Source: Candidatus Binatia bacterium (lineage in GTDB: Bacteria; Desulfobacterota; Binatia; UBA12015). Taken from it: DNA of 64,000 nucleotides. This document shows positions 6,511 through 61,752 of the stretch, piece by piece (within the stretch, counting starts at the first letter, position 1; the number at the start of each line of letters is the position of its first letter). The notes beneath the pieces are model-generated. The model did not search any database. It worked only from the letters and a program-made list of their open reading frames with translations, and was not told the origin of the DNA. The stretch is from contig JAQWRY010000020.1 in assembly GCA_029243485.1 (NCBI GenBank), positions 1-64,000 of the forward strand, read 5' to 3'. A program made the translations under genes and the position numbers.

Positions 6511-6525
6511 GTCAATCTGCTTGTC
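6511..6525. promoter_or_regulatory. Palindromic operator copy before PhyH
   Basis: GTCAATCTGCTTGTC matches the island consensus GTCAA-N5-TTGAC with one mismatch. It overlaps the stop codon of the acyl-CoA ligase gene and lies 187 bp before the PhyH start. The minus-strand arm gives TTGACG as a possible -35, but no good -10 follows at 17 bp. The 187-bp gap contains nothing else that I recognise. Confidence 0.45.
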
Positions 6526-10742: not shown

Positions 10743-10757
10743 GTCAAGGAAATTGAC
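10743..10757. promoter_or_regulatory. Operator/promoter of the TonB receptor 1 operon
   Basis: GTCAAGGAAATTGAC is a perfect copy of the island palindrome, 51 bp before the receptor ATG. On the minus strand its arm forms TTGACA, with ATAGGT 17 bp further as a -10. It overlaps the last codons of the membrane hydroxylase gene. Confidence 0.7.
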
Positions 10758-11664
10758 TAAATGAGGTCAATGGCCCTGACGACCCTCTGTCGTTCAGCCG
10801 GCGCCAACGGAACGGGGCAAGCAGCGGCCCAAAGAATCCCTTGGGATAGGCGGCGGGCTCGGTGATCCCGATGTCCTCCGGAGGGCTGCGGTCGGGCAGG
10901 AAACGTGTGCCGAAGACTGTGTCCCACACGATCAAGTTGGTCCCGTAGTTCGTGTTCGCCTCTTCCGGCGTCTTGGAGTGGTGCCAGCGGTGAAGCTCGG
11001 CGGTGCTGAAGACCCAGTTGAGTGGGCCGAGACGAAGTTCGACGTTCGCGTGCTGCAAAACGCCATGCACGACGCCAACCGATGCGACCAGGAGGAGCAC
11101 GGTCCGCGGTGCGCCCATCGCGAGCAGGGGCACGCTGCTGACGAAGCCCAGCCAGATCGTGTCGAAGGGATGAAAGCGGGCCGCGTTCAGGAAGTAGAGC
11201 CGCGAAGGGCTGTGGTGCAACGAGTGGAGTCGCCACAGTAACGGGACTTCGTGAGCCGCGCGGTGGGCCCAATAGTGACCGAACTCGTACACGACCAGAG
11301 CCAGAGCCCATTGTCCCCAAAGCGGCCATGACGTCGGCCAGAGGTGAAAGCCCACTGTCCCGGCGAACTGCGCGGCAACGAACAAGCCCGTGGTTTGAAC
11401 GGCAGCATCTCGAAAGCCGCTGAGGAGGTTGTTGGTGGCGAGGAACAGTCCATCGGGGAGCAGGTCATGGCGAAAGTAGTGCTTCCAGCTCTTGGAGTGA
11501 GGGAAGACGCGTTCGAGCAACGAGACTACGGTGTACGATACGGCGGCCAGGATGCCGATGACGGCGCTGCCGCGTTCGGGGATCTCGCGATAGGCGTAGA
11601 TCATCAGCCCCCCGAAGAGGACCGGGAAAACCGTCACCGAGAAAGCCCGCCTTAGAGTGCTCAC
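10744..11664 (-). CDS. Membrane fatty-acid hydroxylase / sterol desaturase family protein
   Basis: A 306-residue di-iron membrane oxygenase. Several hydrophobic segments surround the His motifs HYWAHRAAHE (about 140), HSLHHS (about 158) and HRWHHS (about 235), the eight-histidine signature of the superfamily that hydroxylates or desaturates sterols, fatty acids or ether lipids in the membrane. The GTG start at 11664 overlaps the stop of the SRPBCC gene as GTGA, so the two are coupled; a much longer upstream frame is not protein-like. It is last of the three-gene operon crotonase, SRPBCC protein, hydroxylase, and its 3' end covers the next operator. Substrate unknown. Confidence 0.88.
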   Translation of the reverse strand: MSTLRRAFSVTVFPVLFGGLMIYAYREIPERGSAVIGILAAVSYTVVSLLERVFPHSKSWKHYFRHDLLPDGLFLATNNLLSGFRDAAVQTTGLFVAAQFAGTVGFHLWPTSWPLWGQWALALVVYEFGHYWAHRAAHEVPLLWRLHSLHHSPSRLYFLNAARFHPFDTIWLGFVSSVPLLAMGAPRTVLLLVASVGVVHGVLQHANVELRLGPLNWVFSTAELHRWHHSKTPEEANTNYGTNLIVWDTVFGTRFLPDRSPPEDIGITEPAAYPKGFFGPLLAPFRWRRLNDRGSSGPLTSFSQFP

Positions 11665-13106: not shown

Positions 13107-13121
13107 GTCAAGTTAATTGAC
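13107..13121. promoter_or_regulatory. Operator/promoter of the crotonase operon
   Basis: GTCAAGTTAATTGAC is a perfect palindrome copy between the GH3 stop and the crotonase start. The minus-strand arm is TTGACA, with ATACGT 17 bp downstream as -10, leaving a leader of about 40 bases with a ribosome site. This marks the crotonase operon as separate from the GH3 operon. Confidence 0.7.
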
Positions 13122-17431: not shown

Positions 17432-17466
17432 GTGGGGGAGGCAGGTATCACGCTCCGCCAAGAAGG

Positions 17467-17481
17467 ACAAGTAAGTTGACT
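17467..17481. promoter_or_regulatory. Operator/promoter between DUF3604 and MarR 1
   Basis: GACAAGTAAGTTGAC matches the palindrome with one mismatch. On the minus strand the arm TTGTCC with TACCTG at 17 bp could serve the DUF3604 operon. On the plus strand TTGACT points toward the MarR gene 108 bp away, so the regulator may control itself from the same site. Confidence 0.6.
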
Positions 17482-17588
17482 AAGGAGTTCGGCCTCGCTC
17501 TGTACATTCCGCCGCGGCCGGGCAGGGGCAGGGCGCCAAGGATCGTCAGTTTGATTGCCTAACTCCCCCGAGATGTTACAAAGACCGT

Positions 17589-18131
17589 GTGGCCACCAAG
17601 AGGTCCCGGAATGGAGCGCCCGACCTGGATCAGTTCAGGAAGCACAACCTGGGCTGGCTCCTGCTTCAGATCAGCGACGATTTCTTTCGTTTCGTCGGCC
17701 CGCAGTTGGCAGCCCGGGGCCACACCCTCATGCGGACGCAGCACGCGACTGTGCTGACTCTACTTCCGCTAGAAGGGGCTCGAATCACAGACCTTGCCCG
17801 TGCGGCGGGAATCACAAAACAGGCAATGGCCCTGACCGTGGGAGATCTCGAGAAGTTCGGGTACCTGGAACGGGCACCGGATCCTTCCGACGGACGTGCG
17901 AAGATCGTTCGGTTGAGCGAGGCCGGCCTCGGTATGTTGCGCGACGCGCAGGAGGCCGTTGAGGGAGCTTGGAAACGCTACGCCGGCATGGTGGGCGAGC
18001 GCCAACTTCGGTCCATCCGCAAAGGTCTGGATGAGTTGCTCGAGCAGATCGATACCGCCCGCGCGATGAAAAGCGGTCAAGAGTCGAGCGGCACCCCGAG
18101 CCGGCCCGCGCGCGAGCGCCGAGGCGCCTGA
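17589..18131 (+). CDS. MarR-family transcription regulator 1
   Basis: A 180-residue winged-helix regulator. The recognition region is ARITDLARAAGITKQAMALTVGDLEKFGYLER, followed by the wing DPSDGRAKIVRL, as in MarR proteins. These bind palindromic operators as dimers and usually release DNA on binding a small hydrophobic or phenolic ligand. It starts at GTG and is transcribed away from the DUF3604/GH3 operon, with a palindrome copy in the shared intergenic space. The second MarR (20610-21080) is a paralogue: both contain HNLGWLL near the start and nearly the same wing. These two are the best candidates in this window for the factor binding the repeated palindrome; that link is inference. Confidence 0.9.
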   Translation: MATKRSRNGAPDLDQFRKHNLGWLLLQISDDFFRFVGPQLAARGHTLMRTQHATVLTLLPLEGARITDLARAAGITKQAMALTVGDLEKFGYLERAPDPSDGRAKIVRLSEAGLGMLRDAQEAVEGAWKRYAGMVGERQLRSIRKGLDELLEQIDTARAMKSGQESSGTPSRPARERRGA

Positions 18132-19694: not shown

Positions 19695-19709
19695 ATCAGT
19701 CTCCTTGAC
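19695..19709. promoter_or_regulatory. Weak operator-like site upstream of the sugar porter
   Basis: ATCAGTCTCCTTGAC matches the palindrome with two mismatches, 113 bp before the sugar porter. The 268-bp space between the porter and the secreted-protein gene also holds a TTGACT at 19778 that could be a plus-strand -35. Nothing else is recognisable there. Confidence 0.3.
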
Positions 19710-19850
19710 GAATATGGGTCAGCCTCGAGGAATACTCTCATGATGAAGGAGGAAATGCACATAAATAGAAAAGAAGGTTGACTTTAATTCTGGGACCGTC
19801 CAGCCTCCCCGTGTTCGCCAATTCCGGCGGAAACCATTCTGGAGGGACTC

Positions 19851-20480: not shown

Positions 20481-20609
20481 GTCGCCGGCGCCTGCCGACG
20501 ACTGCGCCCGGCTGTGTAGTCGTGGCGCGCAGGGCGACGGGGAAGGAGCGCGGCGGCATTGGCTGAACGGGTTGAGTTTGAGGTGCCGGCGGCTACTCTG
20601 GCGAGAGCT

Positions 20610-21080
20610 ATGAGCGGCTCCGTCGTCGATGATTCAGACGATTTCCGAAGGCACAATCTGGGTTGGCTCCTGATGTGTCTTGGGAACGATTTCTTCCGCC
20701 GGAGTGGGCCCGAGTTCTACCGGCGCGGATACACGGGGCTCACCAAGGCCCATTCGGTCGTCCTGACGCACCTTCCGTTAGGAGGGGCCCGCGTGACTGA
20801 CCTCGCCCGCACCGCGCGAGTGACGAAGCAGGCGATCGGCCCCCTGGTCACGGACATGGAGCGGCTCGGCTACGTCGAGCGGCTTCGCGACCCCAGTGAC
20901 GCGCGCGCCAAGATCGTGCGGTTCACGGAGAAGGGTCTGGGCCTCGTCCAAGATGCCCGCGAGGTCGTGGCCGAGACGTGGTCGCAGTACGCGGAGATCC
21001 TCGGCGAGGAACGACTCGAGGCGGTTCGCGAGGGATTGGACGAGATCCTCGCCCGTCTCGACCAAGCACGCGACGACTGA
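20610..21080 (+). CDS. MarR-family transcription regulator 2
   Basis: A 156-residue paralogue of MarR 1. It keeps RRHNLGWLLMCLGNDFFRRSG, the recognition helix region ARVTDLARTARVTKQAIG and the wing DPSDARAKIVRFTEKG. I chose the ATG at 20610 (MSGSVVDDSDDFRR); a TTG at 20559 would add 17 residues unlike MarR 1. No palindrome copy is visible directly upstream. With two closely related regulators flanking the sugar porter and secreted protein, one may sense a different intermediate or have a different target set. It converges with a crotonase gene 31 bp away. Confidence 0.9.
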   Translation: MSGSVVDDSDDFRRHNLGWLLMCLGNDFFRRSGPEFYRRGYTGLTKAHSVVLTHLPLGGARVTDLARTARVTKQAIGPLVTDMERLGYVERLRDPSDARAKIVRFTEKGLGLVQDAREVVAETWSQYAEILGEERLEAVREGLDEILARLDQARDD

Positions 21081-21894: not shown

Positions 21895-23775
21895 TCATCC
21901 TCCCGCGGGTTGGCAGTGGCTTCGGAGGCTCGAGCTCACGCCGAACTCCCCAATCGCCTCACCCTTTATGCCCCAGACATAACGGTCGGGCTCGACTCCT
22001 CCCACCGGCGACAGACGCAGAAGGCCAGAGCTGTTCAGTTCCACCCGATCGGGAATCAGGCCCGGTCGGATGCTGGATGTCAGAACACATCCGATCGTCG
22101 TGTCGGGTAGAGACGTCGGCACCTCCATGTTGTCGTAGAACGTGGTCGAGAATCGGCGGTCGGTTCGCGCGGGTCGAACCGCGCCGATCGCCGTTCTCTC
22201 GAGCGTTGCGAGGAACACGAGGCTGACGTCGAGGGAGGCCGGGTTGAGGATCTGGAGATCGTATCGATCTGTCGCGGCCGGCAGTACGACGCGCGTGGGG
22301 TTCGCAGGCTGATCCGTACCGAGGCCCAGCGCATCGTTGCCGAAGGCATACTGAGCCTCCGTGTCGGCGACAGTGAACGACCCGACGATCGCCCCGTCGC
22401 GTAGTGTCGCGCCGGTGCTGCGGAAGCCCCGGCACTCTCCGTCGGTTTCGTATGCGGTCACCGTGACGATGCCCGTAGAGCCGGAGAGGTCGATGCGCGG
22501 CCCAATCTGCACGTTGGCGGCGTCGAGTGCGCCCATGTTCTGAGGATCGACGACCACGGTGTCGTTCTGCGTCAGGCAGATGCTGAAGTCGACGAGCTCA
22601 TTGCAGTCTTCGCTCCAGAAGATCCAGTGCGTCGAGACGTCCACGTCCCCGATGTTCGACGCCTGCAGGAAGCTCACGCGGCCCTCGCTCACGTCGAACG
22701 GCATGAGGAGCTCGGCAGCCGGCTGGGTGTAGGACCCCTCGTCGCCGCACGCGGCGCGTACGCCAGAGGTCGGCATCGGGCCCGGCCCGTTCGTTGGCTG
22801 TGGGGGCATGGTGGGCCCCGGTGTCGCACTACCGCCTGGCGCCGGGGTGGCCGTCGCGGACGGATCGGGCGTGGCGGTCGGGTTGGGGCCGCCATCTGGA
22901 GTCTCTGTTGGCGCGGGCCCAGGTCCCCCAACCGGGGTCTCTGTTGGCGCCGGTCCCGGGCCGCCGTCTGGCGTCTGTGTGGGATCGGGACCGGGGCTGC
23001 TGCCAGGATCGGGGGTGGCTGTGGGATCCGGAGTCGGCGCGGGCGACGCCGTGGCCGACGGGCCGGGCGTCGGCGTTGCCACGGCCGTCGTCACGTCGAG
23101 AGCCGGCGCGGCAAGCGACGGGTTCTCCTTCGTGGCAAACGCCCCCGGCGCGAACGACCGATCGATGCGCACGAAGATCAGCGTAACGAGATCGTTCGTG
23201 TCGGCTTGCAGAAAGCTCACGAGCGCGGCCGTGCTGAACGTGAAGGTGTCGCCGATCGCATGCACGCCTGACGTAAGGCTGAACGTTCCGAGAAACGTTG
23301 CCTGGCCGGCTAGCAGTCCGTTCGCGCTCGACTGGTCGTTCGCCGGAGCATCGGCCCAGAGCACACCGTACTGGGTCTCCACCCAGTTCTCGCCGGCGTG
23401 ACCGTCGTTCAACCCGTAGACCTGGAACGTATCTACGCCGACTGTCTCGCCAGGAGCGGCGTCGGCCTCAGGGGCCACGTCCACCGTCAGGTTGAGGCTC
23501 GCGGCCGAGACCGGCCCGGACACCGAGGACAGGTCGAACCGGATGTATCCCTTGCTGTGCAGGCCGCCGCTGCCCCGATCGGACTTCACCTTGATGTGGA
23601 ACTCGTTTTCGAACGGTGTTGGGAAGAGGCTGCTTGCGTAGCCGTCGGCGCCATTTCCGTCGGAGGTCGTGATGACGATTGCCGCGGCTGGCGCGAGACC
23701 AGCAAGACTCAAGGACAGCGCCATGCCGACGCACAGGAGCGGCCGGGGAAGCACGTAGGGGATGTTCATCGTCAT
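21895..23775 (-). CDS. Secreted DNRLRE-type protein with Pro/Thr linker and unknown C-terminal domain
   Basis: A 626-residue exported protein. After a signal peptide comes a beta-sandwich domain of the DNRLRE type (about 35-240), seen in many cell-surface proteins; it begins VITTSDGNGADGYASSLFP and includes KGYIRFDLSSVSG. A linker of about 110 residues made of repeated PTPDPTATP and GGPGPAPTETP units follows. The remaining 280 residues, with four or more Cys, form a beta-rich domain that I do not recognise. The start at 23775 has AGAGGAG just upstream. The N-terminal 210 residues are nearly the same as in the divergent neighbour at 23988-25295, so the two arose by inverted duplication with different C-termini. 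Likely surface binding or attachment. Confidence 0.8.
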   Translation of the reverse strand: MTMNIPYVLPRPLLCVGMALSLSLAGLAPAAAIVITTSDGNGADGYASSLFPTPFENEFHIKVKSDRGSGGLHSKGYIRFDLSSVSGPVSAASLNLTVDVAPEADAAPGETVGVDTFQVYGLNDGHAGENWVETQYGVLWADAPANDQSSANGLLAGQATFLGTFSLTSGVHAIGDTFTFSTAALVSFLQADTNDLVTLIFVRIDRSFAPGAFATKENPSLAAPALDVTTAVATPTPGPSATASPAPTPDPTATPDPGSSPGPDPTQTPDGGPGPAPTETPVGGPGPAPTETPDGGPNPTATPDPSATATPAPGGSATPGPTMPPQPTNGPGPMPTSGVRAACGDEGSYTQPAAELLMPFDVSEGRVSFLQASNIGDVDVSTHWIFWSEDCNELVDFSICLTQNDTVVVDPQNMGALDAANVQIGPRIDLSGSTGIVTVTAYETDGECRGFRSTGATLRDGAIVGSFTVADTEAQYAFGNDALGLGTDQPANPTRVVLPAATDRYDLQILNPASLDVSLVFLATLERTAIGAVRPARTDRRFSTTFYDNMEVPTSLPDTTIGCVLTSSIRPGLIPDRVELNSSGLLRLSPVGGVEPDRYVWGIKGEAIGEFGVSSSLRSHCQPAGG

Positions 23776-23844
23776 GGCTCCTCTGTTTCGGAATCTTGCT
23801 GGCAGGTAGTCAAGATAGCTGTCCATAGACCATTCAGAGATTTC

Positions 23845-23859
23845 GTCAAGTGAATTTAC
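23845..23859. promoter_or_regulatory. Operator/promoter of the minus-strand DNRLRE gene
   Basis: GTCAAGTGAATTTAC has one mismatch to the palindrome, 70 bp before the start at 23775. The minus-strand TTGACG is followed by TATGGA at 16 bp. Its partner site for the divergent gene lies 65 bp away, about six helical turns. Confidence 0.6.
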
Positions 23860-23909
23860 GATTGAGCACCCGCGGGGCCTAGCCAAGCAGTCTACCAACG
23901 TTGCCAGTA

Positions 23910-23924
23910 GTCAATTGTCTTGAC
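23910..23924. promoter_or_regulatory. Operator/promoter of the plus-strand DNRLRE gene
   Basis: GTCAATTGTCTTGAC is a perfect palindrome copy 64 bp before the ATG at 23988. The plus-strand TTGACT is followed by TAAGGG at 18 bp. A second TTGACG at 23952 lacks the palindrome. Confidence 0.65.
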
Positions 23925-23987
23925 TTCCTATTCCAATTAGTCGTAAGGGCCCTTGACGATCTGTGTTGGAGCCAAGGGAGGCAATCC

Positions 23988-25295
23988 ATGGGAGCGATGA
24001 GGCGGAACTGTTCATTCGGGCGTTTCGGAGGCACGGCAACGATGGCCGCTGTCGCACTGGGCCTTTGCTTCCCGCTGGTTGCGGGCGCGATCGTCATCAC
24101 GACTGCCGATGGAAACGGTGCCGACGGCTACGCGGGTAGCCTCTTCCCAACACCGTTCGAAAACGACGAACACATCAAGGTCAAGTCCGACCGAGGCTCC
24201 GGCGGCCTTCACAACAAGGGCTACGCCCGATTCGACCTGTCCTCTGTCTCCGGGCCGATCTCGGCCGCGAGTCTGAACCTGACGTTAGACATAGCCCCGG
24301 AGGTCGATGCCGCGCCTGGCGAGACCGTCGGCGTGGATACGCTAGAGGTCTACGGGTTGAACGACGGCCACGCCGACGAGGCCTGGGTAGAGACCCAGTA
24401 TGGCGTGCTGTGGGCCGATGCTCCGGCCAACGACCAGGCGAGCCCGAACGGACTGCTCCCGGGTGAGGCGACGTTTCTCGGGACGTTCGACCTCACGTCA
24501 GGTGTGCATGCGATCGGAGACACCTTCACGTTCAGCACGGCTGCGCTCGCGGGCTTTCTGCAAGCCGACACGAACGATCTCGTTACGCTGATCTTCGTGC
24601 GGATCGATCGGTCGTTCGCGCCGGCCGGGTTTGCCACGAAGGAGCACCCGTCGCTCGCCGAACCGGCGCTCGACCTGACGACGGCGACGACAACGCCGAC
24701 CCCGACTCCAGTGCCCACGCCGTCGCCAAGTCCGAGCCCGGGTTCCGCGGCGTGCCCGGCTGTCCCGCTGGCCGGCTGCAGGATGCCCAGCAAGTCGTTC
24801 CTGATGCTCGCAGACAAAGAGGCCGATGGCCCCGGCCCCAAGGACAAGCTCCTCTGGAAGTACTTGAAGGGCCCCGCCGAGACGCAGGCGGCCTTTGGCG
24901 AACCGGACTTCGATACCGACTACACCCTCTGCGTGTACGACGACTTCGGGCTGGCAATCGAAGCCGAAGTCGCGGGGGCTGGTAGCTGCAACGGCAAGCC
25001 GTGCTGGAAGGCGATCGGCACCAAGGGCTACAAGTTCAAGGACAAGGCCACCGGTCAGGACGGCATCTTCAGCATCCTCATGAAGGGCGATCCCGCGAAT
25101 CCCAAGACCAAGATCTTGGTGACGGGAAAAGACGCCGGGCTTCCCTTCGTGGCGGGCAATCCACTGCTCGGTGCCGGAGGGCCGATCGCCGTGCGCCTCA
25201 GCAACAGCACGACCAGCAATTGCTGGGGCGCGGATTTCCCACCCGAGTCGGTGAAGAAGAACTCCGAAGAGATCTTCAAAGCGAAGACGCCGTAG
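23988..25295 (+). CDS. Secreted DNRLRE-type protein, paralogue with different C-terminal domain
   Basis: A 435-residue exported protein. The signal peptide is followed by the same DNRLRE-type domain as its divergent neighbour, a short TPTPTPVPTPSPSPSPG linker and a different C-terminal domain of about 170 residues. That domain starts at the Cys-rich ACPAVPLAGCR and is rich in Lys and Gly (KDKLLWKYLKGP, GTKGYKFKDKATG). I have no family name for it. The start has GGGAGG six bases upstream of the ATG; earlier in-frame codons would cross the operator. Both paralogues carry a palindrome copy in their promoters, so they are likely co-regulated with the catabolic genes. Confidence 0.8.
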   Translation: MGAMRRNCSFGRFGGTATMAAVALGLCFPLVAGAIVITTADGNGADGYAGSLFPTPFENDEHIKVKSDRGSGGLHNKGYARFDLSSVSGPISAASLNLTLDIAPEVDAAPGETVGVDTLEVYGLNDGHADEAWVETQYGVLWADAPANDQASPNGLLPGEATFLGTFDLTSGVHAIGDTFTFSTAALAGFLQADTNDLVTLIFVRIDRSFAPAGFATKEHPSLAEPALDLTTATTTPTPTPVPTPSPSPSPGSAACPAVPLAGCRMPSKSFLMLADKEADGPGPKDKLLWKYLKGPAETQAAFGEPDFDTDYTLCVYDDFGLAIEAEVAGAGSCNGKPCWKAIGTKGYKFKDKATGQDGIFSILMKGDPANPKTKILVTGKDAGLPFVAGNPLLGAGGPIAVRLSNSTTSNCWGADFPPESVKKNSEEIFKAKTP

Positions 25296-25346: not shown

Positions 25347-26135
25347 TCAGGAGGGCGAGAGGGCTCCGTTGATGCCGCCGTCGACGGGGAGCAGCACACC
25401 CGTCGTCCATGCGGCACCGGGAGAGGCCAGGTAGATCGCAGCGGCGGCCATGTCGTCCGGTCGCCCGACGCGGCCGAGCGGTGACATCGCCGCGATCTCG
25501 TCGCCGCGCGTCTCCAGCATCTGTTTCATCATGCGGCTCGGGAACGGCCCGGGGACGAGGGCGTTCACCGTGATGTGACGAGCGGCCAGGTTCTTTGCGA
25601 GCACGCGCGTCAGGTGGTGTAGTCCGGCCTTGCTCGCCGCGTAACTGTAGGTCTCGGTGACGGGAACGACGAGGCCGTCCCCCGAGCCTACGTTGATCAC
25701 CCGAGCAGGCGCGTCCTTGCTCCCTGCTGCGGAAAGCGCTGGTAGGAGCGACTGCACGAGATAGAATGGGGCTTTCAGGTTCAGGTCGAGCGCCCGGTCC
25801 CATCCCTTTGCCGGGAACTCCTCGATCGGTGCGCCCCATGTCGCGCCCGCGTTGTTCACCAGGATGTCGAGCTTCGGAGCAAGCTCCGTGACGCGCGCGG
25901 CGAGATCGCGGCACCCTTCCTCGGTGGCGAGATCGGCTGGGAGTCCGGTGCAGCTGCCGATCTTCGACAGTTCCGCAGCTACGGCTTCGCATTGGTCCGC
26001 TTTTCGCGACGCGATGAGAACTCGGGCTCCCGCTTCGACATAGGCCCGGGCAATCATCTCGCCGATCCCGGCGGTGCCGCCCGTGACGAGGGCCGTGCGG
26101 CCGCGGATGGAGAAGAGCTTCTCGAGATTGGACAT
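25347..26135 (-). CDS. Short-chain dehydrogenase/reductase (SDR)
   Basis: A 262-residue classical SDR that oxidises or reduces an alcohol/ketone with NAD(P). Nucleotide-binding TGGTAGIG (18-25), NNAG (94-97), and the catalytic Ser151, Tyr165 and Lys169 (YAASK) are all present; the C-terminal PVDGGI motif closes the fold. ASRKADQ after the second strand suggests NADP preference. Transcribed divergently from the amidohydrolase gene across an intergenic region with two palindrome copies. Confidence 0.9.
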   Translation of the reverse strand: MSNLEKLFSIRGRTALVTGGTAGIGEMIARAYVEAGARVLIASRKADQCEAVAAELSKIGSCTGLPADLATEEGCRDLAARVTELAPKLDILVNNAGATWGAPIEEFPAKGWDRALDLNLKAPFYLVQSLLPALSAAGSKDAPARVINVGSGDGLVVPVTETYSYAASKAGLHHLTRVLAKNLAARHITVNALVPGPFPSRMMKQMLETRGDEIAAMSPLGRVGRPDDMAAAAIYLASPGAAWTTGVLLPVDGGINGALSPS

Positions 26136-26168: not shown

Positions 26169-26204
26169 GTCAAGTAAGTAGACTAATTAGTCAACGAACT
26201 TGAC
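26169..26204. promoter_or_regulatory. Two operator copies between SDR and amidohydrolase
   Basis: GTCAAGTAAGTAGAC (26169-26183, one mismatch) and GTCAACGAACTTGAC (26190-26204, perfect) have starts 21 bp apart, two helical turns. The first supplies TTGACT with ATAGGA at 17 bp for the SDR gene; the second supplies TTGACT with TAGATC at 17 bp for the amidohydrolase operon. Each divergent promoter thus has its own copy. Confidence 0.72.
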
Positions 26205-26301: not shown

Positions 26302-27426
26302 ATGAACGTGGACGAGCTTCCGCTGTTGTCGGCCGACAGTCATGTCGAAGAACCGCATCTTCTCTGGCACGACGGGCTCCCCGCGGCGATGCGCGCGCGC
26401 GCGCCGCGCGTTCTCGTTCCCGAGGAGAGCTCCGCCGAGGATTTTGGTCGTCGCATTGGGGCAGGTGTGTCGTTCAAGCACGAGGCCCGAAGCATGAACG
26501 TGGACAAGACCGGGGGGCTCGACGACGCGGAGGTCCGCCTGCGAACGTCCGATCCAGAGTGGCGGTTCAAGATCCTGCGGGAAGACGGAGTTGCCGGTGA
26601 GGTGATCTACCCGACCTCCGGCCTCCAGGTCTGGGCCGCCGAGGATGCGGAGGTGGGTGCGGCCTGCTGCCGAATTTACAACGACTGGATTCATGACCGC
26701 CTGGAGTCGAAATCGCCACGTTTTCGTTGCGCGGGGCTCATCCCCACCTGGAATGTCGAGGACGCCGTTTCCGAGGTGAAACGTATCGCGGATCTCGGCC
26801 TCGGCGCAGCGCTGTTGCCGCTCGTCGGTACGCCGGATTGGAATCACCGGCAATGGGAGCCGCTTCTCTCGACGATCGAGGAGATCGGGTTTCCCATCGT
26901 CATGCACCAGGGGACCGGTCACGATATGTTGTTCTACCGTGGGCGCGGTGCGAGCGTGGCGAACTTGTTGGCGACGCAGTCCATGGCGCCGCGCACGGCG
27001 GGGCTCCTCGCCACCTCGGGTGTGCTCCAGGACCATCCGGGTCTGCACTTCGTGTTCGTCGAGTGCAATGCGAGCTGGCTGTCCTGGGCGATGGAAACGC
27101 TCGATCACTACTCTGTCGCCTTCCAGGGATACGAAGGCTGGGTGAAGCCGGTTCTCCCAGAGCCCCCGAGCGCCTATTTGCGCCGCCAGATCCACGGCAC
27201 GTTCCAAGTCGACAGCGTCGCGATCGCGAACGTCCCGCGTACGGGCGTCGAGCCGCTCTTGTGGGGCTCGGACTATCCCCACATGGAGGGAACCTACCCG
27301 AACTCGCGCAAGACTGTGGCCGATCTCTTCGGAGGTCTTACTCCAGAACAGGCGGCCGACATTGGCCACGCAACGACGGCGCGACTCTTCGGCTTCGAAC
27401 CCGAGGTACTGACCTCGCCGGTATGA
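26302..27426 (+). CDS. Amidohydrolase-related (metal-dependent hydrolase) protein 1
   Basis: A 374-residue TIM-barrel protein of the amidohydrolase-2 group, which includes decarboxylases and C-C or C-N hydrolases. The metal motif is SADSHVEEP (Asp-x-His), with MHQGTGHD in the middle and WGSDYPHMEGTYP near the end as the later metal ligands. I chose the ATG at 26302, preceded by AGAGGA; an earlier frame from 26200 would begin inside the operator. Its stop overlaps the GH3 start as ATGA. Substrate unknown; the same family appears twice more in the window (32154, 43524). Confidence 0.88.
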   Translation: MNVDELPLLSADSHVEEPHLLWHDGLPAAMRARAPRVLVPEESSAEDFGRRIGAGVSFKHEARSMNVDKTGGLDDAEVRLRTSDPEWRFKILREDGVAGEVIYPTSGLQVWAAEDAEVGAACCRIYNDWIHDRLESKSPRFRCAGLIPTWNVEDAVSEVKRIADLGLGAALLPLVGTPDWNHRQWEPLLSTIEEIGFPIVMHQGTGHDMLFYRGRGASVANLLATQSMAPRTAGLLATSGVLQDHPGLHFVFVECNASWLSWAMETLDHYSVAFQGYEGWVKPVLPEPPSAYLRRQIHGTFQVDSVAIANVPRTGVEPLLWGSDYPHMEGTYPNSRKTVADLFGGLTPEQAADIGHATTARLFGFEPEVLTSPV

Positions 27427-29492
27427 CGTGCGTGATGTCGGCTGAAGAAGCGAACGACGATCCGGATCGGGAGCAGGCCTTCGAGAAGGTCGCGGCCATG
27501 ACCCTCAAGGAGAAGGTCGGACTCATGTCCGGGCGGCTCTTCAACATGCTTCTCTTGCCGTTCCACCATGGCGTGATGAAGCAGTACAACCGCAGCCCGT
27601 ACCACAACTCCTCCGTCAAGCGGCTCGACGTGCCGTCGATGCGATTCTGCGATGGGCCGCGCGGTGTCGTCAGTCAGAACTCGACTTGCTTTCCCGTCGC
27701 GATGGCACGGGGCGCAACGTTCGATACGGCGCTGGAGGAACGGGTCGGCAAGGCAATCGCGAAGGAGATCATTGCCGCTGGCGGGAACTTCTTCGGCGGC
27801 GTCTGCATCAACCTGCTTCGTCATCCGGCATGGGGACGAGCCCAGGAAACCTACGGTGAGGATCCTCACCTTCTTGGACGCATGGGTGTCGCGGTCACGG
27901 AGGGCGTACAGTCACTGGGCGTCATGGCCTGCGTGAAACACTTTGCCCTGAACAGCATGGAGAACGCCCGATTCAAGGTGGATGTCACCTGCTCGGAGCG
28001 AACACTGCGGGAGGTCTACCTGCCGCACTTCAAGGAATGTGTGGATGCGGGGGCCGCCAGTGTGATGACGGCGTACAACAAGGTGCACGGCGAGTACTGT
28101 GGTCAGAACGAAATGCTGATCCGGGGCGTCTTGAAAGGGGAGTGGGGATTCGAAGGGTTCGTCATTAGTGATTTCGTTTGGGGAATCCACGATACGGCCC
28201 AGGGGGCTCAGAATGGCATGGATGTCGAGATGCCCTGGCCGACCCATTTTGGCCGCAAGCTCCTGAAGGCGGTGAAATCGGGTCGGGTCGCTGAGAAGCA
28301 TGTGGATGAGGCCGCGTTGCGAATCGTGAGCACGATCCTGCGCTTCGACGAGGTCTTGCAAGAGAACGCCGTCGATCCGTCCGTCGTCGCGTGCGAGGAG
28401 CACCGGCAGCTCGCTCGGACGGTCGCCGAGAAGTCGATGACGTTGCTCAAGAACGACAACGGCGTGCTGCCGCTACGGCGCCGTGACCTGAAGCGAGTCG
28501 CGGTCATCGGCGAGCTGGCGGACACGGCCAATGTTGGGGATCACGGCTCCAGCAAAGTCGTTCCGCCCTACGCAATTACGCCGCTCGATGGACTCCGGAC
28601 TCATCTCGGGAGCGATGTCGAGATCGACTATTGCCCGGGCACGGATCTCGCCGCTGTCACCGCGGCCAGCCAGTCGGCCGACGCGGTCGTTCTCGTCGTG
28701 GGGAACCGCCACAGCGACGAAGGCGAGTACATCATGAACTCGAAGCGGTCGCCCGGCGGCGATCGCGACGAGCTGTCGTTGCGAGAGAGCGACGTCGAGC
28801 AGATCAAGGCAGCCGCTCGCGGAAACCCCAACACGGTCGTGGTGTTGATCGGGGGCAGCGCGATCACGACCTCGGAGTGGGAGCAGGACGTGGCCGCGAT
28901 CTTGTTCGCGTACTATCCCGGGATGGAGGGCGGAAACGCGTTGGCGGCCACGCTCTTCGGGGACGTGAATCCCGGCGGCAAGCTGCCATTCACGATTCCA
29001 ACGGACTCGGCGCACCTGCCGTTCTTCGACAAGGAAGCCGAATCGATCGAGTACGGCTACTATCATGGGTACACGCTGCTCGATCGCGAGGCGGTCGAAC
29101 CGGCCTATGCGTTCGGGTGGGGTGGCTCGTATACTCGATTCGAGCTCTCCGCCCCGGCGTTCTCTGCCGACGGCGATCAGTTCCGCGCAGGCGTCACCGT
29201 GCGGAATTCAGGTGAGTGTGCCGGCGATGAAGTCGTTCAGCTCTACGTAGGTTGCAGTCAGTCTAGCGTTGATCGCCCCAAGAAAGTGCTGCGCGACTTC
29301 GAGCGAGTTTCGCTGCAGCCTGGGGAGTCGATTCGCGTCGAGTTGAGCGTCGATCGAAACACGATGCGTTGGTACGATGAAGCCGACGGCGCGTGGAGGC
29401 TCGAAGCCGTGCCCTATGACCTCCATATCGGCACGAGCAGCAGGGATCAGGACTTGTCGACCGGTGTCGTCTCGGTCGACCCCCTCAGTTGA
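27423..29492 (+). CDS. Glycoside hydrolase family 3, cytoplasmic beta-glucosidase type
   Basis: A 689-residue GH3 enzyme without a signal peptide, so it acts in the cytoplasm. The barrel domain has MRFCDGPRGV, CVKHFALNSMENAR and the nucleophile Asp250 in VISDFVWG. The alpha/beta sandwich domain (about 345-560) and a C-terminal fibronectin-III-like domain (about 600-680) follow, as in full-length bacterial beta-glucosidases. The start overlaps the amidohydrolase stop as ATGA. The 3' end overlaps the convergent TonB receptor gene by 8 bp. It probably finishes deglycosylation of an imported glycoside. Confidence 0.9.
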   Translation: MTCVMSAEEANDDPDREQAFEKVAAMTLKEKVGLMSGRLFNMLLLPFHHGVMKQYNRSPYHNSSVKRLDVPSMRFCDGPRGVVSQNSTCFPVAMARGATFDTALEERVGKAIAKEIIAAGGNFFGGVCINLLRHPAWGRAQETYGEDPHLLGRMGVAVTEGVQSLGVMACVKHFALNSMENARFKVDVTCSERTLREVYLPHFKECVDAGAASVMTAYNKVHGEYCGQNEMLIRGVLKGEWGFEGFVISDFVWGIHDTAQGAQNGMDVEMPWPTHFGRKLLKAVKSGRVAEKHVDEAALRIVSTILRFDEVLQENAVDPSVVACEEHRQLARTVAEKSMTLLKNDNGVLPLRRRDLKRVAVIGELADTANVGDHGSSKVVPPYAITPLDGLRTHLGSDVEIDYCPGTDLAAVTAASQSADAVVLVVGNRHSDEGEYIMNSKRSPGGDRDELSLRESDVEQIKAAARGNPNTVVVLIGGSAITTSEWEQDVAAILFAYYPGMEGGNALAATLFGDVNPGGKLPFTIPTDSAHLPFFDKEAESIEYGYYHGYTLLDREAVEPAYAFGWGGSYTRFELSAPAFSADGDQFRAGVTVRNSGECAGDEVVQLYVGCSQSSVDRPKKVLRDFERVSLQPGESIRVELSVDRNTMRWYDEADGAWRLEAVPYDLHIGTSSRDQDLSTGVVSVDPLS

Positions 29493-31950
29493 ATCGGTAG
29501 CTGAGCTCGCCGCCCCACGTCGCTCCGGGTGCGTAGTAGCGGGTCGAGTAGCCGAAGAATCCTGTCGTTCCGCCCAGGCCACCGAAATAGTCCGTGTCGG
29601 TGATGTTGCGGCCCCAGAGCGCGACCTGCGCCCGGTCGTCGAGGAAGTCGTACGACAGTCGCGCGTTCAGCAGGTTGTAGCCGGAGAGCTGTCCCGAAGG
29701 GTCCTCGGGCTGCGTCGTGTGAATCGCACTCTGGTAGTACCAATCGAGACGCGGCGTCAGCCATCCATCGAGCCAGTCCGGCCCGAGAGCGGCCACGCTG
29801 AACGAATACTGCAGCGCGATGTAGCTCGTGAACTTCGGCGTATCGATGAAGGTCTCGCCCTGACGGTTGATGGGTGTCATCGAGTCGAGGGCGCTGACGT
29901 CGGGGAAATTCCCGTTCTCCGAGTCTAGGACGCCGAAGTTCGCCATGAGCATCAGGCCGTCGATCGGCCGCGTCACGATCTCGGCCTCGAGCCCTTCCAG
30001 TGTGGCGGAATCGGCATTCACGATCAGCCGCGCTGTCTCGGGCAGTTCCTGCCCGGGTACTTCGATGGTTACGCTCTGGGTCACCTGTCGGCCGTCGTAG
30101 TCCATATGGAAGAGGGCGAGGTTGAAGGTCAGGCGCTGGTCGAAGCCGATCGTCTTGAAACCGATCTCGAAGTTGTCGACCGTTGCGGGGTCGAACGCGA
30201 CCAGGCCGCCGGCGGTCCCGGTGCCGACGACGGCGTTGAAGCCACCACTCGAGAAACCGCGGGAGTAGGTGAAGTAGCCCATCGCGTGGTCCACCGGAGT
30301 GTCCTCGATGAGCCCTTCGGGCGCGATGAGAGCCACGCTGCCCATCGGGGTCCAGGAGGTGAAGACCTTGCTGTCGGCCTCCGAGGCGGTGAGGACCGGG
30401 TCGGTCGTTGTGCCATCGCCCAAGGGGAAGATCGTGTCGCGCGAAACCCCGCGCTTTTCGGTCGTGTAGCGAAGACCCGCCGTCAGGTTGAGCCACCGGG
30501 CGACGTCGTAGCTCGCTTGCCCGAAGAGGGCCCAGTCCCAGTCGTCCTGGCTGACGGGACCAACGGTCGTGCCGCCGGCCGTATCGATGACGCCGGGGAT
30601 AGAGCGCACCAAGAGGGCTTCGTCACGGGTTTCCCACTCGGCGAAGACGCCGGCAACGAAGTTCAGATCGCCGTCCAAGGCGGCCCCGGCGGCCTGGCCC
30701 TCGACCAGGTACTGTTCACCTTCGTTAGGCTCTCCCTCGATGCCGTCGTACTCGATGTTCGTCACGGTCGTGAGCGGCGTGATCGTGCCATCGATGTCCT
30801 CCCGGTTGCGGACCTTCTGCTGTCGCCAAGAGCCGAGGAGTTTCAGCGTAAGGTCGTCGAGGAAGCCCGTCTGCTCCGGGGTCCAGGCGGCGTTGCCCCA
30901 GACCCCGTAGTCCTTTGAGTCGAAGATCGAGTGGAGGTTGCTTCGGAACTCGCGCGGCTTCGATTCGGCACACTCATCGAGAAACGTCGGGAAGCCAGCC
31001 GTGATCAGCCCTTGAAGGGAGGCTCCTGCTTCGGGGACCACGACGCAGTTCGGGCCTTTCCCTTTGCTGTGATCCTGGAAGTAGTTACCCGAGACGTTGA
31101 TCTCGATGTCGTCCGTTGCGAGCACCCGGACGCTGCCGAGGAACCAGAGGGCGTTCCGGTCACTGTGGTTCTCGCCGGTATAGGCGTTCGTCGCGTAGCC
31201 GCTGGAGTTGGCCGACGAGACCGAGAGCCGCGTGAACACCCGGTCTTCCAGCGCGCCGATGCGGATGGGCAGATTGAGACTCGACCGCGTCTCCACCGTC
31301 GAGAAGTTTCCCGCGCGAACCCACACCGAACCTTCGAGCTCGTCCTTGGGGCGGACGGTCGTGATGTTGATGGCGCCGCCGAGCGTGTTCTTCCCGAACA
31401 GAGTTCCTTGCGGCCCTCGGAGCACCTCGACCTGCTGGATGTCGGCCGCACTCAGGACGGACGCGAGCGCGCGCGGGAGAAAGACGCCGTCGACGTACAC
31501 CCCGACTCCGGGGTTTCCCGCCTCCGTCGCTCCGACGCCGCGGATCGAGATGTTGGCGAGGTTGTCTCCGCGGAAGGTATCGATGCGGAGGTTGGGGACC
31601 AGGTTCTGAATCTCGTCGAAGCGCGTGATCTGTGCCTCGATGAGAGTCTCGGCGCTGACGGCGGTGATCGAGATCGGCGTGTCTTCGAGGAATTCGTCGC
31701 GCTTTCTTGCGCGGACCACGATCTCCTCTACGCGGTTTCTGGCGCGGCCGGAAAGGGGCGTGTCGAGGTCGGAGGGCGAGGTCCCTTCGGCCTGTGCCTC
31801 GGTGGCGTCGATCTCTTGATCGATCCCGCCTGCTCCGGCACCGGCTTCGATGGTCTCCAGGTACCCTGGGGCGCCGCGGTCCTGACCGGGCGCAAGGTCC
31901 GCGGTTGCGCAGGTCACGGCCAAGGCCATCACAATTCGTTTCAAGAACAT
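29485..31950 (-). CDS. TonB-dependent outer-membrane receptor 2
   Basis: An 821-residue receptor with a signal peptide, an acidic linker, a plug with EIVVRARKRDEFLEDTPIS and VEVLRGPQGTLFGKNTLGG, and a beta barrel ending in SYRFN. It resembles receptor 1 throughout, most clearly in the plug. The ending is one residue longer after the terminal Phe, which is unusual for the assembly signal. The start at 31950 follows GAGGGGG; upstream in-frame residues cross the operator. Its gene stands alone, divergent from amidohydrolase 2 and convergent with GH3. It may import a related substrate. Confidence 0.93.
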   Translation of the reverse strand: MFLKRIVMALAVTCATADLAPGQDRGAPGYLETIEAGAGAGGIDQEIDATEAQAEGTSPSDLDTPLSGRARNRVEEIVVRARKRDEFLEDTPISITAVSAETLIEAQITRFDEIQNLVPNLRIDTFRGDNLANISIRGVGATEAGNPGVGVYVDGVFLPRALASVLSAADIQQVEVLRGPQGTLFGKNTLGGAINITTVRPKDELEGSVWVRAGNFSTVETRSSLNLPIRIGALEDRVFTRLSVSSANSSGYATNAYTGENHSDRNALWFLGSVRVLATDDIEINVSGNYFQDHSKGKGPNCVVVPEAGASLQGLITAGFPTFLDECAESKPREFRSNLHSIFDSKDYGVWGNAAWTPEQTGFLDDLTLKLLGSWRQQKVRNREDIDGTITPLTTVTNIEYDGIEGEPNEGEQYLVEGQAAGAALDGDLNFVAGVFAEWETRDEALLVRSIPGVIDTAGGTTVGPVSQDDWDWALFGQASYDVARWLNLTAGLRYTTEKRGVSRDTIFPLGDGTTTDPVLTASEADSKVFTSWTPMGSVALIAPEGLIEDTPVDHAMGYFTYSRGFSSGGFNAVVGTGTAGGLVAFDPATVDNFEIGFKTIGFDQRLTFNLALFHMDYDGRQVTQSVTIEVPGQELPETARLIVNADSATLEGLEAEIVTRPIDGLMLMANFGVLDSENGNFPDVSALDSMTPINRQGETFIDTPKFTSYIALQYSFSVAALGPDWLDGWLTPRLDWYYQSAIHTTQPEDPSGQLSGYNLLNARLSYDFLDDRAQVALWGRNITDTDYFGGLGGTTGFFGYSTRYYAPGATWGGELSYRFN

Positions 31951-32004: not shown

Positions 32005-32063
32005 GTCAAGATGATTGACGAAAATCGTCAAGCGGGTTGATTGAGTCGGTCAAGTGACTTGAC
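32005..32063. promoter_or_regulatory. Three tandem operator copies with exact 22-bp period
   Basis: GTCAAGATGATTGAC (32005), GTCAAGCGGGTTGAT (32027, one mismatch) and GTCAAGTGACTTGAC (32049) start 22 bp apart. The first arm, read on the minus strand, is a -35 (TTGACT) for receptor 2. The last, read on the plus strand, is TTGACT with TAGAAG at 18 bp for amidohydrolase 2. The period places neighbouring dimers on about the same face of the helix, which favours cooperative binding. Confidence 0.78.
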
Positions 32064-32153: not shown

Positions 32154-33419
32154 ATGAATCTCGAAGACATGGTCTTGGTCAGCGTCGACGACCACATCAT
32201 CGAACCCCCCACGGTCTTTCAGAATCACATGCCTCAGAAGTGGGCATCGCGCGCCCCGAAGCTCGTCTACGACGCCGCAGACAAGGTTCAGCGCTGGACG
32301 TGGGAGGAGGGGAGCACCCAGACTCCCTTCATCAACGCCGTGGTGACGCTGCCGGAAGAAGAGTGGGGGTTCGATCCGGGAACCCTCGCCGAGATGCGCC
32401 CCGCCTGCTGGGACGTCCACGAGCGCGTGCGCGACATGAACGCGAACGGCGTCTTGGCATCGATGTGCTTCCCGTCGTTCGCCGGCATGGGCGGTTGGTT
32501 CTTCGCTTCGGCGAAAGACCGGGCGCTCGCCACGGTCTGTCTGCGCGCCTACAACGACTGGCACATCGACGAATGGTGTCGAGCTGCGCCGGGAAGATTC
32601 ATCCCGCTGCCCATCTCGCCCCTTTGGGATCCAATGCTCGCGGCGGAGGAGGTCCGGCGCGTAGCCCGCAAAGGGGCGACCGCGATCACGTTCGCCGAGG
32701 ATCCGGAGGCCATGGGCTTCCCGAGCATTCACACTGGAGACTGGGATCCCTTCTTCGAGGCATGTGTCGATCACGGCGTGACGATCGCGATTCACATCGC
32801 CTCGTCGGCGACGGGCCCGCTGGGTCGACCTACGACGCCCGTCGACGTCACCGTGACCCTTCCGTGCTGGAACTCGCTGCCGTGTCTCGCGAACTTCTTG
32901 TGGTGCCGTTCCCTCCAGAAGTTCCCGGATCTGCGCATTGCGCTTTCGGAGGGCGGTACGTCCTGGATTCCCGGTTTTCTCGACCGAATGGAGCGCCACT
33001 TTGCGAGGCAGAAGTGGACGCGTGCCGACCTCGGGGGGCTCACTCCGACCGAGGTCTTCCGCCGGAACTTCCTCTCATGCTTCATCAGCGACCCTTCGGG
33101 GCTGCTGCTGCGTGATCGCATCGGGATCGACAACATCGCGTACGAGGTCGACTATCCCCATTCGGACTGTACGTTCCCCGGCTCCCCCGAAGAGCTGTGG
33201 GAGTGTTTGGAGGATGCCCAGTGCTCGGACGAGGAGATCGACAAGATCACCTACAGGAACGCGGCCCGGTGGTTGCGCTTCGATCCGTTCGCGCGTCTGC
33301 CTCGCGAATCTGCAACGGTGGGTGCGCTCCGAGCCGCGGGCGCTGATGTAGATCTCCGGACTCGCTCCCGTCGTGAGTACGCTGCAGCCTACGAGGAGAA
33401 GTATGGGCCAATCGGCTGA
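32154..33419 (+). CDS. Amidohydrolase-related (metal-dependent hydrolase) protein 2
   Basis: A 421-residue amidohydrolase-2 protein. VSVDDHIIEPP carries the Asp-x-His-like N-terminal metal motif, IHIASSATG the mid-barrel His, and YEVDYPHSDCTFPG the late Asp/His pair. The layout resembles amidohydrolase 1 but the sequences are well diverged. Start at 32154 has GGAG close upstream. It is first in an operon with a P450, a CoA transferase and a serine hydrolase; the P450 start lies inside its last codons. Substrate unknown; ring or C-C hydrolysis is possible by analogy. Confidence 0.87.
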   Translation: MNLEDMVLVSVDDHIIEPPTVFQNHMPQKWASRAPKLVYDAADKVQRWTWEEGSTQTPFINAVVTLPEEEWGFDPGTLAEMRPACWDVHERVRDMNANGVLASMCFPSFAGMGGWFFASAKDRALATVCLRAYNDWHIDEWCRAAPGRFIPLPISPLWDPMLAAEEVRRVARKGATAITFAEDPEAMGFPSIHTGDWDPFFEACVDHGVTIAIHIASSATGPLGRPTTPVDVTVTLPCWNSLPCLANFLWCRSLQKFPDLRIALSEGGTSWIPGFLDRMERHFARQKWTRADLGGLTPTEVFRRNFLSCFISDPSGLLLRDRIGIDNIAYEVDYPHSDCTFPGSPEELWECLEDAQCSDEEIDKITYRNAARWLRFDPFARLPRESATVGALRAAGADVDLRTRSRREYAAAYEEKYGPIG

Positions 33420-43523: not shown

Positions 43524-44417
43524 TCAGTTGGGCAGTTGAAAGACCCTGAGGGCGTTCTCGCGCAGAAACTTGGGCCACACATGGTCGCGGAAGGGAACCT
43601 TGGGCAGCTCTTCGAAGATTCGATCGAGTGTCAGCCCGAAGGGGAAATAGCCTGCGTACATGATCTTGTCGCTGCCCCGCGTGTTGGCGTAGTCGACGAT
43701 GTCCTTTGGGTAGTGCTTCGGGGCGAACGCGCTGGTCATGTAAAACAGGTTTGGCCACTTCAGCATTAGCTTCACGGCGAGCGCTGTCCACGGCTCGGCG
43801 CCGTGGCGCATGACGAAGCGCAGTTCGGGGAAGAACCAACAGACTTCGTCGACGAGCTCGACCTTTTGGCTTGCGAACGGCACCCGTGGTCCCGGGATGC
43901 CCACGTTGCAGCAGAACGGCAGATCGAGCTCCACGCACTTCGCGTAGATCGGATACCAGCGCGCGTCGTTGATCGGCAGCTGCGGGTCGTGCGCGGCCGG
44001 CAGGCCTCCGATCGCTCGCAGGTCGTACTCTTCGTGCAGGCGGACGATCTTGCGGACCTCGTCCATGCCGCGGTGGGCGTCGGCCTCGTACCAGTGGAAG
44101 AAGCGATTCGGGAAGCGGCGGCTCGCCTCCTTGGCGAGCTCGTCGTCGTCGTCGATGCGGATCATCGCCCGCTCGACTCCGAACCGGTCCATCTCCGAGA
44201 TGGTCCACGCGATGTAGTCGGTTTGTTCCCCGGCGCGCGGGAGATCCTTGAACATGTACCCCGCGGGCATGTCGAGCTTGGCAAGGCTCTCCTCGTCCCG
44301 CAGGAGGCGACGCCATCGTTCGGTGGCGCGTCGGGGGCCGGCGCCGGAGTACGCTTCCGGACCCGAAGGAACCCCGAGCAGAAGATCGATCACGCCGATG
44401 TCCTTCGGAAACGCCAT
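43524..44417 (-). CDS. Amidohydrolase-related protein 3, metal site incomplete
   Basis: A 297-residue barrel protein of the amidohydrolase-2 group. Unlike its two relatives here, the N-terminal motif reads VIDLLLG, so the His of Asp-x-His is missing, and the late SDYP motif is replaced by YFPFG. FRFVMRHGAEPW and FCCNVGIPGP remain. It may use a different metal arrangement or be non-catalytic. First gene of the operon with aldo-keto reductase, ligase, ACAD, crotonase and SDR, divergent from the KshA-like Rieske gene. Confidence 0.8.
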   Translation of the reverse strand: MAFPKDIGVIDLLLGVPSGPEAYSGAGPRRATERWRRLLRDEESLAKLDMPAGYMFKDLPRAGEQTDYIAWTISEMDRFGVERAMIRIDDDDELAKEASRRFPNRFFHWYEADAHRGMDEVRKIVRLHEEYDLRAIGGLPAAHDPQLPINDARWYPIYAKCVELDLPFCCNVGIPGPRVPFASQKVELVDEVCWFFPELRFVMRHGAEPWTALAVKLMLKWPNLFYMTSAFAPKHYPKDIVDYANTRGSDKIMYAGYFPFGLTLDRIFEELPKVPFRDHVWPKFLRENALRVFQLPN

Positions 44418-44447: not shown

Positions 44448-44484
44448 GGCAAGCTCTTTGACTAAATTGATCAAGTAGATTGAC
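44448..44484. promoter_or_regulatory. Two operator copies between amidohydrolase 3 and Rieske oxygenase 1
   Basis: GGCAAGCTCTTTGAC (44448) and ATCAAGTAGATTGAC (44470), each with one mismatch, start exactly 22 bp apart. The first, on the minus strand, gives TTGCCT with TAGGCA at 18 bp for the six-gene operon. The second, on the plus strand, gives TTGACG, with no good -10 at the expected place for the Rieske gene. Confidence 0.65.
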
Positions 44485-55712: not shown

Positions 55713-55749
55713 GACAAGTGTCTTGACGATTCAAGTCAAGACACTTGAC
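55713..55749. promoter_or_regulatory. Two operator copies between thioesterase and Rieske oxygenase 2
   Basis: GACAAGTGTCTTGAC (55713, one mismatch) and GTCAAGACACTTGAC (55735, perfect) start exactly 22 bp apart. The minus-strand promoter is TTGTCT, 17 bp, TAGCGC, ending 7 bases before the thioesterase GTG. The plus-strand promoter is TTGACG, 17 bp, TAGGAC, ending 6 bases before the Rieske ATG. Both transcripts should begin at or next to the start codon. Confidence 0.75.
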
Positions 55750-60237: not shown

Positions 60238-60252
60238 GTCAAGTTGCTTGTC
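60238..60252. promoter_or_regulatory. Single palindrome serving two divergent promoters
   Basis: GTCAAGTTGCTTGTC (one mismatch) gives a -35 on each strand from its two arms. Plus: TTGTCT, 17 bp, TAGCTT, for the SnoaL-like gene with a leader of only a few bases. Minus: TTGACT, 17 bp, TAGGCG, for the LLM gene with a leader of about 40 bases. One bound dimer would block both. Confidence 0.72.
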
Positions 60253-61737: not shown

Positions 61738-61752
61738 GGCAAGGAACTTGAC
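61738..61752. promoter_or_regulatory. Operator/promoter of the last crotonase gene
   Basis: GGCAAGGAACTTGAC matches with one mismatch, 57 bp before the ATG at 61681. Minus-strand TTGCCT is followed by TACCGA at 18 bp. It is the last palindrome copy before the transposase remnant. Between 61753 and 61874 nothing else is recognisable. Confidence 0.6.

Follow-up and report, generated by a model that had tools for sequence, protein, structure and literature searches.

Short palindromes recur between the divergent operons of a catabolic island in an uncultured bacterium, in places two or three side by side and about two helix turns apart, which raises the question of which regulator they serve and whether their spacing has a function. 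The island is a ~55-kb block of breakdown genes within the window (the whole 64-kb stretch of DNA analyzed here) and encodes oxygenases, CoA-ester enzymes, GH2/GH3 glycosidases, a sugar transporter, and two TonB receptors. As a guess, this gene content suggests a glycosylated, ring-containing substrate; no match above the NCBIfam curated cut-off was found in the 10 proteins scanned of the 48 predicted. Operators of the MarR family, to which two regulators of the island belong, are inverted repeats bound by a dimer and usually lie in the regulator's own promoter, and the family is usually drawn as one dimer per site.

Read directly in the window, the palindrome unit spans 15 bp, GTCAA-N5-TTGAC, and weighting of the flanks widens it to ~21 bp with the consensus TTAGTCAAGTnACTTGACTAA. 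The triple array (32005..32063; PWM 25.8, 18.1, and 27.6) consists of copies at 32005 (GTCAAGATGATTGAC), 32027 (GTCAAGCGGGTTGAT), and 32049 (GTCAAGTGACTTGAC), with steps of 22 and 22 bp, and lies between a TonB receptor gene, 29485-31950(-), and an amidohydrolase gene, 32154-33419(+). Three paired operators were also identified with the PWM. The pair at 26169..26204, with copies at 26169 (GTCAAGTAAGTAGAC) and 26190 (GTCAACGAACTTGAC) and a step of 21 bp, separates an SDR gene, 25347-26135(-), from an amidohydrolase gene, 26302-27426(+). The pair at 44448..44484 (44448, GGCAAGCTCTTTGAC; 44470, ATCAAGTAGATTGAC; step 22 bp) lies between an amidohydrolase gene, 43524-44417(-), and a KshA-like Rieske oxygenase gene, 44532-45491(+), and the pair at 55713..55749 (55713, GACAAGTGTCTTGAC; 55735, GTCAAGACACTTGAC; step 22 bp) between a thioesterase gene, 54884-55681(-), and a Rieske oxygenase gene, 55780-57153(+). 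Five of the nine array copies (32027, 44448, 44470, 55713, and 26169) carry a single mismatch to GTCAA-N5-TTGAC. The original prediction had placed four arrays at these positions, between divergent operons; reading the sequence at all nine copies found its coordinates exact, and the predicted genes flanking all four arrays are indeed divergently oriented.

Further sites were absent from that prediction, namely a possible fifth pair and a number of wider-spaced and single sites. The fifth pair (10743..10780, step 23 bp) combines a strong site at 10743 (leave-one-out E = 1.1e-5), which overlaps the 3' end of gene 10744-11637(-), with a weak one at 10766 (E = 2.2), upstream of the TonB receptor gene 8205-10691(-). 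Two operators lie between a DUF3604 gene, 15119-17431(-), and the MarR gene that starts at 17589(+): one at 17466..17480, and the other, the MarR promoter operator at 17545..17559, 79 bp further on and 44 nt before the MarR start. Two weaker sites at 19695 and 19768 (19695..19782), 73 bp apart, are found between a sugar transporter gene, 18170-19582(-), and a gene starting at 19851(+). Four sites at 23809, 23845, 23910, and 23943 (23809..23957; steps of 36, 65, and 33 bp) separate genes 21895-23775(-) and 24042-25295(+), a divergent, paralog-like couple with similar N-termini and a sub-threshold CBM96 match. Single operators occur upstream of two enoyl-CoA hydratase genes (13107..13121 before 12218-13045(-), and 61738..61752 before 60872-61681(-)) and between genes 59249-60169(-) and 60287-60814(+) (60238..60252). 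A weaker single site (6511..6525), upstream of the PhyH gene 5497-6324(-), overlaps the 3' end of gene 6512-8020(-).

Counting matches of at least 9/10, the window contains 20 sites, against ~1.0 expected from 10 first-order Markov sequences, and the approximate leave-one-out E per 64 kb is at most 0.08 for each of the nine array copies. Fifteen of the 20 sites lie wholly outside predicted genes, where intergenic DNA makes up 7.5% of the window; two overlap a gene 3' end (6511 and 10743) and three fall inside predicted genes (5683, 10766, and 27615). The 6.55-Mb genome holds eight perfect copies, seven of them inside the window, compared with four for a reversed-pattern control. When one mismatch is allowed, there is no excess across the whole genome (81 versus 85 for the control), and the signal is thus meaningful only as a local cluster on this contig. 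Consistent with this confinement, when motif model R1 was run on 14 family genomes, with no more than 150 candidates scored in each during the first pass, the matches listed for the own genome numbered 19 (10 sites) and were all on this contig. The perfect copy at C21:49890 was rejected as a chance occurrence because the extended motif failed, with no site of at least 14 in its surroundings (L052). Within intergenic regions, neighboring sites are spaced 23, 79, 73, 36, 65, 33, 21, 22, 22, 22, and 22 bp apart; a spacing of 21-23 bp is seen in 6 of these 11 neighbors (P ~3e-6 under a uniform null of 15-80 bp that was picked after the data were seen). The step is therefore near two helix turns, as had been predicted, but is not strictly fixed as originally described, being 21-23 bp here and 21, 22, or 24 bp in the relatives discussed below. 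Both the spacing preference and the island-confined, regulon-like cluster are real.

The sites precede genes for TonB receptors, amidohydrolases, Rieske oxygenases, enoyl-CoA hydratases, an SDR, a thioesterase, a luciferase-like monooxygenase, and MarR. The outward TTGAC half-site looks like the -35 box of the promoter that it would control. A TA[GC] element resembling a -10 box lies 17-18 nt downstream of 12 out of 23 outward half-sites and of none of the 23 other flanks (23 sites, 46 flanks; the element and its distance had been noticed before counting), leaving 11 of the 23 outward half-sites without such an element at 17-18 nt. Elsewhere between 5 and 30 nt, no distance gives more than one TA[GC] among the outward flanks. 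A -35/-10-like pattern is present in both directions at the pairs 26169/26190 and 55713/55735, and at the single site 60238. At 60238, both -35-like boxes lie on one palindrome, and in the arrays they lie on the outermost half-sites. The earlier description of these arrays as operator-like is supported by the sequence, as is a putative repression of both divergent promoters.

The number of sites rises with the gap between the divergent -35-like boxes, which measures 15, 37, or 59 bp. Since a single palindrome accommodates both boxes at 60238, copy number may simply follow the gap between the divergent boxes. The original prediction suggested instead that copy number tunes the strength of repression, a proposal that is compatible with a MarR repressor and agrees with the occurrence of one, two, and three copies; nevertheless, the distance between the divergent -35 boxes could equally set the copy number, and we regard tuning as possible but somewhat doubtful.

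Among the 48 predicted proteins of the window, the only DNA-binding families found with Pfam are two MarR paralogs and the recombinase encoded at 23-1912. The first MarR gene (17589..18131, plus strand) encodes a protein with matches to Pfam MarR_2 (1e-8) and MarR (4.9e-8) above the curated cut-offs, and profile matches to solved MarR-family chains identify a winged-helix MarR domain. Inverted repeats of the island type lie in its own promoter (17466 and 17545). The second gene (20673..21080, plus strand) encodes a paralog 51% identical to the first; its homology starts near 20616, and its true start is probably upstream of 20673 (region 20559-21080). We consider it likely that the palindromes are operators of the MarR repressor encoded at 17589-18131, possibly shared with the paralog encoded at 20673-21080. 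Counting against this reading, some divergent regions of the window use other spacings, and the sites of the MarR gene itself are 79 bp apart. A genome of the same genus (G001) encodes an 88% identical MarR protein on contig JAJCZO010000039.1, in surroundings that are otherwise different. There, a site at L040:9641, 45 nt before the MarR start and accompanied by a -10-like element, is the counterpart of window site 17545; a counterpart of 17466 is absent from this locus.

The link between motif and regulator extends to MarR relatives in other bacteria. These were taken as the best 80 of 153 relatives from a contig profile search with a MarR alignment, recruited partly by a TKQA pattern, and the window's motif was sought in the interval between -350 and +60 bp relative to every estimated start. 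Near the starts of these best 80 of 153 relatives, 88 sites were found (2.68/kb), compared with 34 elsewhere in the loci (0.024/kb), a ~110-fold higher density. With the symmetrized motif, 57 of the same 80 loci have a site and 44 have a pair, defined as one site scoring at least 13 and another at least 9 at a distance of 15-45 bp; no site at threshold was found in 23 of the best 80 relatives. By comparison, 200 palindrome-preserving permutations of the motif yielded on average 1.9 sites and 0.3 paired loci, with maxima of 30 and 11, respectively, and control loci with weaker MarR matches (27 loci, 86.7 kb, scanned as whole loci) gave four sites. The 44 loci contain 45 pairs, with steps of 21 bp (22 pairs), 22 bp (8), 24 bp (13), 16 bp (1), and 19 bp (1), so that a step of 21, 22, or 24 bp occurs in 43 of these loci; the rest of the relatives' loci contain five pairs, three of them at 22 or 24 bp. 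Sites accompany 56 of the 70 relatives with [ST]KQ[AT] in the recognition helix and 1 of the 10 without it, a comparison to be read with the partial recruitment by TKQA. These results link the motif, and its paired step, with this subfamily of MarR regulators, and the two-turn step of the original prediction finds a parallel in distant relatives. In several of the actinobacterial relatives viewed (for example, L108:9418-9837), the paired operators separate the MarR gene from a small divergent gene that by eye resembles a cupin gene.

Alternatively, a TetR-family regulator from another part of the genome might use these operators, with the MarR genes as bystanders. The motif resembles that of KstR2, a TetR regulator. 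The case for TetR comes from a sister species (G002), where the site at C39:2642 (L049; GTCAAGTCACTTGAC) has a score of 29.9, the best among the sites seen in relatives, and separates a TetR gene from an amidohydrolase gene, hinting that the TetR of G002 may share the operator sequence. This genome has no close MarR ortholog (its best match to the window MarR is 34% identical). Conversely, the best match to this TetR in the island's own genome is just 30% identical, no TetR_N match was found with Pfam in the 48 predicted proteins of the window and no TetR gene adjoins the sites, and, in other bacteria, the region around the start of MarR relatives is strongly enriched in the motif and its pairs. 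A TetR regulator of the island is therefore unlikely, and a MarR repressor remains the preferred reading.

The other genomes of the genus and family contribute single strong sites only. Motif-model sites were found once each in G001, G002, and G008 and in none of the other 10 family genomes; these strong sites (G001 C71:14792, G002 C39:2642, and G008 C8:338516) lie in intergenic regions that are not homologous to those of the window, and the G002 site has two weak partial neighbors at +19 and +24 (scores 6.3 and 5.9). In G001, the single site on C71 (L046:10469-17675) is between an APH-family gene and a sulfatase gene, in the neighborhood of a GH3 gene that shares 66% identity with window gene 13132-15102, which suggests a related glycoside route. 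In G008, a DUF3604 gene 53% identical to window gene 15119-17431 (C8, L051:13088-15337) is ~4.6 kb from the single operator-like site, itself upstream of an SDR gene. Perfect copies on G001 C193 and G008 C33 were set aside as chance occurrences with scores of just 14.3 and 15.6, as was the one on G001 C175, with no site of at least 14 in L047; one perfect copy is also present in G043.

A tree of 83 MarR proteins, in which L065 (16-bp pair) and L111 (sites 102 bp apart) were labeled as single, places the pairs in separate positions, for instance in gammaproteobacteria (step 24) and in Nocardia and Pseudonocardia (step 22). In a large actinobacterial clade, a step of 21 predominates, Microbispora/Planotetraspora having 22 and a Streptomyces group 24. 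The clade sister to that of the window, made up mainly of Rhodoferax, carries its sites singly or far apart. Deep placements in this tree are weakened by several long branches and open forks, and the 44 paired loci include many close kin and do not count as independent cases. A wider generalization can be offered tentatively and with less than even confidence: in a MarR subfamily spread over several phyla, dimers may repress by stacking every ~2 turns, nucleated at operators that double as the -35 boxes of divergent promoters, so that a short row would shut the two promoters of a catabolic operon pair together, as a single switch.

The step could also be devoid of function, a tandem duplication of a ~22-bp unit frozen by descent, and the pairs of the large actinobacterial MarR clade do look inherited from a common ancestor. 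In the window, however, neighboring array units agree at 31% of the variable positions (6 pairs), compared with 35% for units of different arrays (156 pairs); units of one array resemble each other no more than unrelated sites do and hence are not recent duplicates. Moreover, steps of 21-24 bp recur in separate MarR clades. Duplication alone is thus very unlikely, and the two-turn step is probably kept by function. Least probable of all is that the regulator acts as an activator, or as activator and repressor, instead of as a repressor alone: some MarR members do activate (PMC4737184), but the sites coincide with the -35-like box itself, which suits occlusion.

A MarR repressor would thus operate as follows. 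Each dimer would cover a ~21-bp operator that includes a -35 box (the outward TTGAC). At divergent promoters, one to three dimers would line up next to one another at steps of mostly 21-23 bp, perhaps cooperatively, as originally suggested. Such a row would span the distance from one -35 box to the other and keep RNA polymerase off both promoters. The repressor would be freed by an inducer, which is probably a substrate or an intermediate of the oxygenase/CoA-ester/glycosidase route, and its release would switch on the whole island.

Parts of this scheme have precedents. CouR of Rhodococcus jostii RHA1 is a MarR-family catabolic repressor of several promoters whose inverted repeat, with a 5-bp spacer, overlaps the -35 box, and, where two promoters diverge, a single CouR box overlaps the -35 box of each (PMC4737184), as proposed here for window site 60238. 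The two systems differ in the half-sites (cATTGA--TCAATg in CouR and GTCAA--TTGAC here) and in the arrays of the island, as arrays are not described in the accessible part of that report, which gives p-coumaroyl-CoA as the inducer of CouR (PMC4737184). CouR is also distant in sequence, chain 6c28, named CouR, matching the MarR profile at E 3.2e-6. Another MarR-family protein, SCO3205 of Streptomyces coelicolor, has two operators in one divergent intergenic region. In crystals, its dimers occupy 22-bp DNAs that stack end to end (PMC3737563), a packing that makes a step of 22 bp look sterically feasible. As far as the available text of that report goes, the SCO3205 sites are independent and non-overlapping in a 119-nt region and do not abut, and the operator sequence differs (PMC3737563). 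QacR-type TetR repressors resemble the arrangement proposed here in placing two dimers per operator with cooperative binding, but, in the portion of the source available, their palindromes overlap, the dimers lie on opposite sides, and no two-turn step is involved; they also belong to another family (PMC6018408). A local catabolic MarR repressor overlapping -35 boxes is therefore of an already known kind, and the arrays with a two-turn step that are seen repeatedly in a MarR subfamily seem to be a variant on a known theme. Among the matches listed from the open-licence literature, no description of this operator or of paired-step MarR arrays was found.

The original prediction had proposed comparing array spacing across related genomes; no orthologous array for such a comparison was found in the genus, family, and class genomes. 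Homologs of the TonB receptor encoded at 29485 occur in 13 of 145 genomes (E at most 1e-100) and those of the Rieske oxygenase encoded at 55780 in 6 of 145 (E at most 1e-60), the own genome being included in both counts. No pair was found near the 19 best-match loci of these two proteins (flanks of at most ~1.5 kb; the window's own L157 and L172 excluded), and 6 of the 19 have one weak site (10.6-13.2). A search for the paired-site pattern in 148 class genomes gave matches in seven, including the own genome (at the triple array). Of the six other matched genomes, one (G042) was inspected by eye and rejected as a phage-like switch: its two TCAAG-N3-CTTGA pairs (C51:322-365 and 750-781; L135 and L140; steps of 31 and 19 bp) flank an apparent phage-type repressor gene and seem unrelated.

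For an uncultured group, the island provides a regulator-operator code that can be tested, with one local MarR regulator, a 21-bp operator, and a catabolic gene set, and it would permit regulon prediction and inducer discovery for this MarR subfamily in other genomes. The paired operators at 21-24 bp across the subfamily further suggest that neighboring, perhaps cooperative, dimers may be a recurring mode of binding. At the left contig end, the window encodes a serine recombinase (23-1912, Pfam), and at the right end of the contig (C20), an ORF at L009:1175-1758 resembles, by eye, the C-terminal part of a tyrosine recombinase. From these two observations, the regulon may belong to an island that is, or once was, mobile.
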